From: Salvelinus alpinus
Taxonomy: Eukaryota > Chordata > Actinopteri > Salmoniformes > Salmonidae
Length of the DNA stretch: 64,000 nucleotides
Assembly: GCF_045679555.1 (NCBI RefSeq)
Contig: NC_092096.1
Location: 21,661,016 to 21,725,015 of the forward strand
Direction: 5' to 3'
Under the pieces are notes generated by a model that saw only the letters and a program-made list of their open reading frames with translations, had not been told where the DNA came from and did no database searches. The translations under genes and the position numbers were made by a program. Positions within the stretch are counted from its first letter, which is position 1. Every line of letters starts with the position of its first letter. Below, one piece after another: positions 10,801 through 16,800 of this stretch.

Positions 10801-13800
10801 TGAAGCTAGAAGTTTGGTGTCAATTATGCATGTATGTCAATGGGAGATTTGGAGTGCCTTCATGCTCCCTCTGCAACTCAAGTTTGGATTTGTTTGGATG
10901 TGCAGGGTGTGTGTTTGACAAAATTATTTTGTCAGATTTTCTGTCTAAATACAGGAAATCTGATTCCTGAATGTTAGGTAAACTGTAACAAGATACTTTC
11001 TAGACCACAATGTATTCTGGTCAACCGTCTCCATGAGAGGAGTAGGGTGGAGTCGCCCCTAGACGCTGATCTTGGGTCAGTGTTGCATTTTCCACACTAA
11101 TGGTTAAATAAAGGTTTAATAAAAAATTTGAATAAATTTGCCTTTAAGCCCAAGTCAGTGAAAGCATTCCTCATCGTCATGGAGACGAGGGTAGGGGGCA
11201 GCGGCCTCCCGGGTTTATCAAGGCTGATGGGATTCTTTGTGTTAATGTGTGTGATGACCAAGCGCTCCTCGTCAATGTGATGGATCATTAATACAACTGG
11301 GAGATGACAGCAGAGGAAAGGCGACAGGAGCGAAGCTTGGCGGCGGAGCTTTTGATGTGGCACATATTAACTAGTAATCTCCAAACACCCGCTGAAGTTA
11401 ATTAACCAGACTGTTTGACTAATAACGACACAGGGTAGAAGTGATCCATTACCTATCAAGAGAAGCTCCCCCCAATCCTTAACTTAACCTTAACCTTAAC
11501 TAGGCAATCCTTAACTTAACCTTAACTAGGCAATCCTTAACTTAACCTTAACTAGGGAAGTTAGTTAAGAACAAATTATTATTTACAATGGCGGCTACCC
11601 CGGCCAAACCCTAACCTGGACGACGCTGGGCTGTGTGTTTCAACGTGGCTAATTAGCTAACTAGGTAGCTGCATGTAGCTAGCTAACAGAATCCAAAGCT
11701 ATTGTTCCCTAGAGAGGCAGTGGTTGCCATGGATCTGGCGTCCCCTCCTGCAGAACACTAGGCCTGCCACTTCCCGTCATAATGTGTCCCTTTGAGAGGA
11801 GGGCAGAGTCACTTTCTCTCACTGAATAAGGAACATGGTCGTTCGTATTATGGTCCTGTTTGACAAGACCACCTGTTTGACAGGTTACTCAGGTCTTGAA
11901 TCAAATTTCCATCGTTCTCTGTAACATGGACCATAAAGTAGTATTATTATAGGAGGAGGGTGTGACTAGACCATACAAGCCACTGCAACGTCCTATTCAT
12001 TAGTGCACACCGTCGCAAAACGTTTTGCAACGGAAAAGCGGAAACAAGTTCAGGTAGTTCCCTTCCTGTTTCTGTCCATTTTCTTCTGTTTGCCACTTAG
12101 TGAATAGGACCCCGTATTCCCTTTAACTTTGTCCTGCTTGTCTGTTTGCCACTTAGTGAATAGGACCCCGTATTCCCTTTAACTTTGTCCTGCTTGTCTG
12201 TTTGCCACTTAGTGAATAGGACCCCGTATTCCCTTGTCCTGCTTGTCTGTTTGCCACTTAGTGAATAGGACCCCGTATTCCCTTTAACTTTGTCCTGCTT
12301 GTCTGTTTGCCACTTAGTGAATAGGACCCCGTATTCCCTTTAACTTTGTCCTGCTTGTCTGTTTGCCACTTAGTGAATAGGACCCCGTATTCCCTTTAAC
12401 TTTGTCCTGCTTGTCTGTTTGCCACTTAGTGAATAGGACTCCGTATTCCCTTTAACTTTGTCCTGCTTGTCTGTTTGCCACTTAGTGAATAGGACCCCGT
12501 ATTCCCTTTAACTTTGTCCTGCTTGTCTGTTTGCCACTTAGTGAATAGGACCCCGTATTCCCTTTAACTTTGTTCTGCTTGTCTGTTTGCCACTTAGTGA
12601 ATAGGACCCCGTATTCCCTTTAACTTTGTCCTGCTTGTCTGTTTGCCACTTAGTGAATAGGACCCCGTATTCCCTTTAACTTTGTCCTGCTTGTCTGTTT
12701 GCCACTTAGTGAATAGGACCCCGTATTCCCTTTAACTTTGTTCTGCTTGTCTGTTTGCCACTTAGTGAATAGGACCCCGTATTCCCTTTAACTTTGTCCT
12801 GCTTGTCTGTTTGCCACTTAGTGAATAGGACTCCGTATTCCCTTTAACTTTGTTCTGCTTGTCTGTTTGCCACTTAGTGAATAGGACCCCGTATTCCCTT
12901 TAACTTTGTCCTGCTTGTCTGTTTGCCACTTAGTGAATAGGACCCCGTATTCCCTTTAACTTTGTCCTGCTTGTCTGTTTGCCACTTAGTGAATAGGATC
13001 CCGTATTCCCTTGTCCTGCTTGTCTGTTTGCCACTTAGTGAATAGGACCCCGTATTCCCTTTAACTTTTTTCTGCTTGTCTGTTTGCCACTTAGTGAATA
13101 GGACCCCGTATTCCCTTTAACTTTGTCCTGCTTGTCTGTTTGCCACTTAGTGAATAGGACCCCGTATTCCCTTTAACTTTGTCCTGCTTGTCTGTTTGCC
13201 ACTTAGTGAATAGGACCCCGTATTCCCTTGTCCTGCTTGTCTGTTTGCCACTTAGTGAATAGGACCCCGTATTCCCTTTAACTTTGTCCTGCTTGTCTGT
13301 TTGCCACTTAGTGAATAGGACCCCGTATTCCCTTTAACTTTGTTCTGCTTGTCTGTTTGCCACTTAGTGAATAGGACCCCGTATTCCCTTTAACTTTGTC
13401 CTGCTTGTCTGTTTGCCACTTAGTGAATAGGACTCCGTATTCCCTTTAACTTTGTCCTGCTTGTCTGTTTGCCACTTAGTGAATAGGACCCCGTATTCCC
13501 TTTAACTTTGTCCTGCTTGTCTGTTTGCCACTTAGTGAATAGGACCCCGTATTCCCTTTAACTTTGTTCTGCTTGTCTGTTTGCCACTTAGTGAATAGGA
13601 CCCCGTATTCCCTTTAACTTTGTCCTGCTTGTCTGTTTGCCACTTAGTGAATAGGACCCCGTATTCCCTTTAACTTTGTTCTGCTTGTCTGTTTGCCACT
13701 TAGTGAATAGGACCCCGTATTCCCTTTAACTTTGTCCTGCTTGTCTGTTTGCCACTTAGTGAATAGGACCCCGTATTCCCTTTAACTTTGTCCTGCTTGT

Positions 13801-16800
13801 CTGTTTGCCACTTAGTGAATAGGACCCCGTATTCCCTTGTCCTGCTTGTCTGTTTGCCACTTAGTGAATAGGACCCCGTATTCCCTTTAACTTTGTCCTG
13901 CTTGTCTGTTTGCCACTTAGTGAATAGGACCCCGTATTCCCTTTAACTTTGTTCTGCTTGTCTGTTTGCCACTTAGTGAATAGGACCCCGTATTCCCTTT
14001 AACTTTGTCCTGCTTGTCTGTTTGCCACTTAGTGAATAGGACTCCGTATTCCCTTTAACTTTGTCCTGCTTGTCTGTTTGCCACTTAGTGAATAGGACCC
14101 CGTATTCCCTTTAACTTTGTCCTGCTTGTCTGTTTGCCACTTAGTGAATAGGACCCCGTATTCCCTTTAACTTTGTTCTGCTTGTCTGTTTGCCACTTAG
14201 TGAATAGGACCCCGTATTCCCTTTAACTTTGTTCTGCTTGTCTGTTGCAGCGGCCGCCAGCACCAGGAAAGACAAGTCCCTACGCATCATGAGTCAGAAG
14301 TTTGTCATGCTCTTCCTGGTGTCCAGGACCCAGACGGTCACTCTGGACGTGGCCGCCAAAATCCTCATCGAGGAAAGCCAGGACCCCGCCAGCCACAGCA
14401 AGTACAAAAGTAAGCATCCTATTACCTACATAGTGCACGACTTTTGACCAGAGCTCATAGGGATCTTGAGGGTTTTGCCGTGCAGTCAAAAAGCCTCTGA
14501 CACAACATCAAGTCCAGGTACTCCCTGCCTGTTTCAGTCAGTTTCTCCCCTTTGGGGCCTAATGATCACAGCCCAGCCACCAAATAGCTGCAGGTTGAAG
14601 TTTCCCCTAGTACAGGTCTAGGATCAACTTCTCCTCTAATAATCCTAACCTTAAACATTGGTGGGGAAGATGCAAAACTGACCCAAGATCAGCGTCTAGG
14701 GGCAACGTCACTGTACACCTCAGATACCCCCAGACATCCCTCCCAATGTCCTTTTTACTGGGTTAGGGTTAAAAATGATACATCTGATTAGAATCTGTTT
14801 TCAGCTAAGGTGCGGCGGCTGTATGACATCGCCAACGTCCTGACGAGTCTGGGATTGATCAAGAAGGTCCACGTCCGGGAGGAGAGGGGGAGGAAGCCTG
14901 CGTTCAAATGGATCGGCCCGGCAGACTTCCACAGCAGCCATGGTAAGATTGAATTGAAATTATTTGGGTAGTGAATAATACAGCCAGATGTGGATCCCAG
15001 AGGATAGCACTTAAAAGCATTCATTAAAACACTTTTCACACAGTGGTCCTCGGTGGTAAAACAAATAACATCACTCCCATATTGGTTCGGAAGGGCATCA
15101 GCTCAGTACTTCATAGGGAGACCATCTACAGTGGGGAGAACAAGTATTTGAGACACTGCCGATTTTGCAGGTGTTCCTACTTACAAAGCATGTAGAGGTC
15201 TGTCATTTTTAACATAGGTACACTTCAACTGTGAGAGACGGAATCTAAAACAAAAATCCAGAAAATCACATTGTATGATTTTTAAGTAATTCATTTGCAT
15301 TTTATTGCATGACATAAGTATTTGATACATCAGAAAAGCAGAACTTAATATTTGGTACAGAAACCTTTGTTTGCAATTACAGAGATCATACGTTTCCTGT
15401 AGTTCTTGACCAGGTTTGCACACACTGCAGCAGGGATTTTGGCCCACTCCTCCATACAGACCTTCTCCAGATCCTTCAGGTTTCGGGGCTGTTGCTGGGC
15501 AATACGGACTTTCAGCTCCCTCCAAAGATTTTCTATTGGGTTCAGGTCTGGAGACTGGCTAGGCCACTCTAGGACCTTGAGATGCTTCTTACGGAGCCAC
15601 TCCTTAGTTGCCCTGGCTGTGTGTTTCGGGTCGTTGTCATGCTGGAAGACCCAGCCACGACCCATCTTCAATGCTCTTACTGAGGGAAGGAGGTTGTTGG
15701 CCAAGATCTCGCGATACATGGCCCCATCCATCCTCCCCTCAATACGGTGCAGTCGTCCTGTCCCCTTTGCAGAAAAGCATCCCCAAAGAATGATGTTTCC
15801 ACCTCCATGCTTCACGGTTGGGATGGTGTTCTTGGGGTTGTACTCATCCTTCTTCTTCCTCCAAACACGGCGAGTGGAGTTTAGACCAAAAAGCTACATT
15901 TTTGTCTCATCAGACCACTTGACCTTCTCCCATTCCTCCTCTGGATCATCCAGATGGTCATTGGCAAACTTCAGACGGGCCTGGACATGCGCTGGCTTGA
16001 GCAGGGGGACCTTGCGTGCGCTGCAGGATTTTAATCCATGACGGCGTAATGTGTTACTAATGGTTTTCTTTGAGACTGTGGTCCCAGCTCTCTTCAGGTC
16101 ATTGACCAGGTCCTGCCGTGTAGTTCTGGGCTGATCCCTCACCTTCCTCATGATCATTGATGCCCCACGAGGTGAGATCTTGCATGGAGCCCCAGACCGA
16201 GGGTGATTGACCGTCATCTTGAACTTCTTCCATTTTCTAACAATTGCGCCAACAGTTGTTGCCTTCTCACCAAGCTGCTTGCCTATTGTCCTGTAGCCCA
16301 TCCCAGCCTTGTGCAGGTCTACAATTTTATCCCTGATGTCCTTACACAGCTCTCTGGTCTTGGCCATTGTGGAGAGGTTGGAGTCTGTTTGATTGAGTGT
16401 GTGGACAGGTGTCTTTTATACAGGTACGAGTTCAAACAGGTGCAGTTAATACAGGTAATGAGTGGAGAACAGGAGGGCTTCTTAAAGAAAAACTAACAGG
16501 TCTGTGAGAGCCGGAATTCTTACTGGTTGGTAGGTGATCAAATACTTATGTCATGCAATAAAATGCAAATTAATTACTTAAAAATCATACAATGTGATTT
16601 TCTGGATTTTTGTTTTAGATTCCGTCTCTCACAGTTGAAGTGTACCTATGATACAAATTACAGACCTCTACATGCTTTGTAAGTAGGAAAACCTGCAAAA
16701 TCGGCAGTGTATCAAATACTTGTTCTCCCCACTGTATCTATATACATTTATAATGGAACTGTCTTCACTTCTACTAAAACTAATCATAAACCTGTCTACT

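Follow-up and report, generated by a model that had tools for sequence, protein, structure and literature searches.

Intron 5 of a gene which we take to be e2f7 rather than e2f8 carries a minisatellite that very probably arose when the diverged end of a MITE and the acceptor tract of exon 6 were joined at the shared word TCTGTT and the composite then expanded into a tolerated, non-functional array. In few minisatellites can one still recognise both parents, the word at which they were joined and the sequence of steps. In the e2f7 array one can: the MITE body still continues into unit 1, and the last unit is still attached to the native acceptor. The features are listed in Table 1 and all positions refer to the window, which is the whole stretch of 64000 bp that was analysed.

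Structure of the array

When we ran TRF on the window, the array was delimited at 12085-14246 with a period of 56 and 96% matches. It makes up 60% of the 3591 bp of intron 5 and at its end 39 whole units are followed by TCTGTT, then by GCAG and then by exon 6. An initial annotation of this DNA had suggested that a 56-bp unit was amplified about 39 times. We parsed 39 full units, which agrees with this number, but the unit length applies to 35 of them, whereas the other four measure 49 bp. These four have lost the motif TTTAAC by a 7-bp deletion, and it is kept in 35/39 units. At 0 mismatches TTTGCCACTTAGTGAATAGGA occurred 39 times (shuffle mean 0.01). An RNA fold of four units indicated no special structure (z -0.59), and no Rfam families were detected in the window.

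Fourteen TRF-listed tandem arrays occupy 18565 bp of the window. Minisatellites are thus common here and another intronic one is by itself unremarkable. When the other arrays of the window were inspected for a whole number of units plus a short remainder, the outcome was mixed. Long open frames are present on both strands at 30246-31313 and 38535-39625, within 36-bp arrays. Since a 36-bp unit is divisible by three, such frames are expected and genes are unsupported at these places.

Table 1. Positions of the array, its parts and the neighbouring features in the window
Feature	Position	Strand	Basis or remark
Exon 5	10414..10659	+	ends in phase 1
MITE copy	11990..12112	+	20-copy profile and alignment; right end intact to GACCC
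Minisatellite	12085..14246	+	39 full units (35 x 56 bp, 4 x 49 bp) + 6 bp
Junction repeat TCTGTT, left copy	12085..12090	+	collapsed-array comparison
Unit 1, MITE-derived half	12085..12112	+	original MITE end, in place
Unit 1, intron-derived half	12113..12140	+	genome matches confined to array
49-bp units without TTTAAC	12197..12245, 12974-13022, 13191-13239, 13800-13848	+ (given for 12197..12245)	unit parse
Nine-unit variant block, first copy (units 19-27)	13079..13575	+	variant typing
Nine-unit variant block, second copy (units 30-38)	13688..14184	+	11 units downstream; identical to units 19-27
Nearest decoy acceptor CCACTTAG	14193..14200	+	would lengthen exon 6 by 50 nt
Branch-like TTAAC of true acceptor	14223..14227	+	A 25 nt upstream of exon 6
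Junction repeat TCTGTT, right copy	14241..14246	+	within true acceptor tract
GCAG of true exon 6 acceptor	14247..14250	+	outside repeat
Exon 6	14251..14409	+	part of second winged-helix DNA-binding domain

Composition of the repeat unit

The MITE family is short (about 124 bp), carries the common terminal inverted repeats GGGTC...GACCC and is dispersed, with at least 39 copies elsewhere in the genome (best 40 of 608 candidates scored). From 20 genomic copies, the intron-5 copy itself excluded, we built an nhmmer profile, which recovered the intron-5 element at 11990-12113 (model 5-128, E 1.1e-33). Its identity to the consensus is 85% (108/127) and its left end has drifted (ACGTCC vs GGGTC in the family). 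Comparing the flanks by eye across family copies, we saw no convincing target-site duplication at this element. Model position 125 or beyond was reached by 36 of the 39 retrieved genome copies, which include the 20 used for model building. The right terminus carries ACCC in 14 of these 20, and this indicates that the right end of the MITE takes in GACCC.

Thus, the 56-bp unit consists of 28 bp of MITE right end (TCTGTTTGCCACTTAGTGAATAGGACCC) and 28 bp of intron, the latter starting at C-GTATTCCC. That one half of the unit equals the right terminus of the neighbouring MITE had been proposed before, and the profile match and the matching termini confirm it. The composite nature of the unit stood as well, but the boundary between the halves had to be moved, as the MITE end extends through GACCC. 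For the intron half (CGTATTCCCTTTAACTTTGTYCTGCTTGTC, up to 3 mismatches) we obtained 35 matches in the 2.37-Gb genome and all 35 fell within the array; the reversed control had 0 matches in the genome. This half is native intron, since it runs straight into the true acceptor, and the intron segment CGTATTCCCTTTAACTTTGTCCTGCTTG lies next to exon 6. These data bear out the assignment of the second half to the sequence leading to exon 6. We had considered that the intron half might itself be a repeat, as it resembles a common salmonid repeat, but the confinement of its matches to the array removed this candidate. Constraint on the MITE half, which had been considered since variants seemed to spare it, was also rejected: the variable unit positions 26 and 27 lie inside this half, which ends in GACCC.

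Further members of the MITE family are present in the window. At 14507-14576 (inside intron 6) only the right part of the element is found, an insertion of about 150 bp interrupts the copy at 9774-10038 (intron 4), and 274-377, further upstream, holds a worn copy. The left flank of a 46-bp array (42917-42956, TTATGAATACGGACCCTG) resembles the right end of the MITE; it had no MITE profile match at E <=1 and may be a second MITE-side minisatellite. In viral contigs, neither the MITE nor the array unit was matched (0 matches, three patterns).

Host gene and paralogous loci

The host gene encodes two E2F/DP winged-helix domains (PF02319, 2 stretches), which makes it an atypical E2F. The best solved relative by sequence is E2F8, and we follow the initial annotation in calling the gene e2f7. 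With exon 6 DNA as query, we matched only the locus itself and a paralogue pair on C33 (78%) and C5 (75%), and the protein identity of this pair in exon 6 is about 60%. At the equivalent position, the paralogues have introns of 194 and 209 bp, and in these we detected no MITE match and no array. The pair had been a candidate for the e2f7 ohnologs, but we take it to be e2f8 instead. Exon 5 DNA had itself as the sole match in the genome. The intron upstream of the MITE matched itself and two 45-bp stretches only, when the query omitted a common repeat found in 11560-11985. Searches of the genome with DNA of exon 5, exon 6 and the intron revealed no e2f7 ohnolog. The C33/C5 pair is retained in duplicate and the gene of the window appears to be single.

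Origin and turnover of the array

Reducing the array to a single unit leaves one 56-bp segment with TCTGTT on either side, an exact direct repeat of 6 bp, and the MITE then lies 38 bp from exon 6. This distance fits the earlier suggestion that the MITE landed a few dozen bases from the exon. A microhomology CTGTT(T)GC between MITE end and acceptor had also been described; its core is the exact word TCTGTT, but the extension into (T)GC is inexact. Direct repeats of at least 6 bp at 56-bp spacing were found at 97/42862 single-copy positions of the window, and 53/20000 local shuffles had a repeat of at least 6 bp at that breakpoint. A shared 6-mer anywhere between the two T-rich parts was present in 3066/5000 shuffles, which indicates that the raw material for such an event is not rare. 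For slippage-born minisatellites one expects direct repeats of 5-10 bp, into which the 6 bp of TCTGTT fall, as well as a whole number of units followed by a further copy of the short repeat, to which the 39 units + 6 bp correspond. Judged from its sequence, the single 56-bp segment flanked by TCTGTT is the predicted scar of a slippage-type minisatellite birth.

As to the order of events, the MITE departs from its consensus at 7 positions in the last 28 bp and all of these departures are present in 39/39 units. The mean divergence among the 35 full-length units is 1.22%. Together, these data indicate that the element aged first and that the array is younger. However, other MITE copies share at least two of these seven departures (positions 3 and 16), and thus not all of the 15% reflects the private age of this element.

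The variant types along the array follow an 11-unit period: at lag 11 we counted 17/28 matches, which was equalled by 0/2000 shuffles, and among the 24 lags tested lag 18 came next (p 0.012). This period, to which the two nine-unit blocks of Table 1 conform, indicates that after the first step blocks were duplicated or exchanged unequally. TTCTG is present in the last complete unit and in the true acceptor, and TCCTG in unit 1. From this difference it appears that later exchange also reached the ends of the array. Either the copy number of 39 or the block period might be artefactual, since long near-identical arrays are prone to errors of assembly and our analysis used the assembled sequence. 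There are, however, seven unit types and clean joins to the flanks on both sides, and the unit itself and its composition are independent of the copy count, so that we regard an artefact as quite improbable.

As exchange within the array is real, conversion is possible in principle, and the array could then be older than the MITE or independent of it, either because the MITE end was gained by conversion or because the array was imported. Against this scenario, unit 1 is continuous with the MITE, both ends of which fit the family, the intron half is confined to the array locus and leads into the native acceptor, and one junction accounts for both unit and phase. We give it very little weight. 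Birth from the MITE end and the acceptor tract, which the initial annotation had proposed and which we prefer, would have started with a MITE copy that settled 38 bp upstream of exon 6, directly before the native branch-point/polypyrimidine tract, and that diverged by about 15% from its family before amplification. A tandem duplication, presumably through slippage during replication or a comparable event at short homology, would then have joined the TCTGTT words of MITE end and acceptor tract, doubling the half-MITE/half-intron segment of 56 bp. The longer homology would have permitted growth to 39 units, and exchange would later have involved about 11 units (609 bp) at a time.

Decoy acceptors upstream of exon 6

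The array had been described as ending at exon 6. It does adjoin the acceptor, but it stops at 14246, 4 bp short of the exon (14251), and consequently the true AG lies outside the repeat unit. An AG and a branch-like TTTAAC had been attributed to each unit; the decoy AG is indeed present in 39/39 units, but for TTTAAC (35/39) this wording was too strong. A perfect YTNAY motif (TTAAC) is located 31 nt upstream of the AG in 34/39 decoys, and for the other 5/39 no branch-like motif was detected within 15-49 nt. Thus, the decoy acceptors exist as motifs and represent possible false splice sites.

We ranked these sites by a simple frequency-based acceptor score and used the 708 non-array AGs in 4001-15000 as background. 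The true exon 6 acceptor scored 4.68 (99.3rd percentile). Of the decoys, 38 scored 1.56 (95.3rd percentile) and the one in the first unit 2.59 (97.0th), so that the decoys proposed by the initial annotation rank high, but the true acceptor outscores every one of them. The second AG of each unit scored -1.44. For the real acceptors of exons 3, 4, 5 and 7, we obtained 5.4, 3.4, 4.6 and -0.84. Since the decoys rank within the top 5% of AGs and the acceptor of exon 7 scores below them, they are not dismissible. Splicing at any of the 39 decoys is predicted to lead to a stop after 8 new codons (35 decoys) or 18 (4 decoys), and these predicted stops fall ahead of DNA-binding domain two. At the true acceptor, a separate TTAAC lies 25 nt upstream with no intervening AG, and this can account for its being selected. 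YGCY, the binding word of MBNL splicing factors, occurs twice per unit, which amounts to 78 words across 12085-14246.

These data raise the question of function. If the array were a splice regulator, its units would act as weak poison acceptors, and the copy number would set the share of early-stop e2f7 transcripts lost to nonsense-mediated decay. The AG in every unit, the YTNAY motif 31 nt upstream of it in most of them and the predicted stop after at most 18 new codons at each decoy are consistent with this idea, and passages of the ABCA7 report (PMC5954066) offer a precedent for VNTR length altering splicing. On the other hand, the decoys score lower than the true acceptor, the five decoys that have no branch-like motif in range give no sign that its loss was opposed, and the paralogous genes manage with introns of 194 and 209 bp that are free of the array. 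Moreover, a unit-retention isoform described in passages of the same report is independent of VNTR length. A regulatory role is therefore hardly to be expected. The wider proposal, by which MITE end and acceptor tract would form a self-amplifying poison-acceptor cassette, whose copy number would tune e2f7 output and differ between individuals, appears similarly improbable to us. Most probably, splicing makes little or no use of the decoys and the array has no selected function. It would be tolerated because a branch motif, a tract and a CAG that belong to the true acceptor are retained between the last unit and exon 6.

Comparison with known systems

The birth of minisatellites at short direct repeats that flank a motif was reportedly described in Poecilia by Taylor and Breden in 2000. 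According to passages of PMC6947457, which refer to Haber and Louis 1998, a motif between direct repeats of 5-10 bp is duplicated and then expands. The e2f7 array resembles such cases in its flanking repeat of 6 bp, but differs from them in that the repeat copies come from two sources, the MITE end and the acceptor tract. Passages of Ahmed and Liang 2012 (PMC3389668) place transposons behind at least 23% of human minisatellites/satellites, and MITE-derived satellites are on record in passages of PMC6947457. Here, the likeness is that a transposable element supplied part of the unit, whereas the e2f7 unit is half MITE and half single-locus intron. When we searched the literature for the e2f7-intron locus or for a MITE/acceptor composite minisatellite, none was found.

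Splice signals multiplied beside an exon are also known. In amphioxus, 'mirage' minisatellites at the intron/exon border multiply AG signals and splicing is still correct, as described in passages of PMC3087553. The repeat of the mirages spans the exon border, whereas the e2f7 array ends before exon 6 and takes its decoy AG from the MITE. In ABCA7, passages of PMC5954066 describe an intron 18 VNTR with a splice-site motif per unit beside a real exon, misuse of which leads to an early stop. Both loci share intronic units with a splice-site motif near an exon and an early stop, which for e2f7 is a prediction. However, in ABCA7 the real donor GT lies within the repeat unit, whereas in e2f7 acceptors were multiplied and the true GCAG lies outside the unit.

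The e2f7 locus is a natural setting in which to ask how the spliceosome settles on one acceptor behind about 39 similar ones, and whether the length of a repeat at this place affects a cell-cycle repressor gene. Taken together, the e2f7 array adds to the minisatellites born at short direct repeats, and one of its two parents is a MITE.
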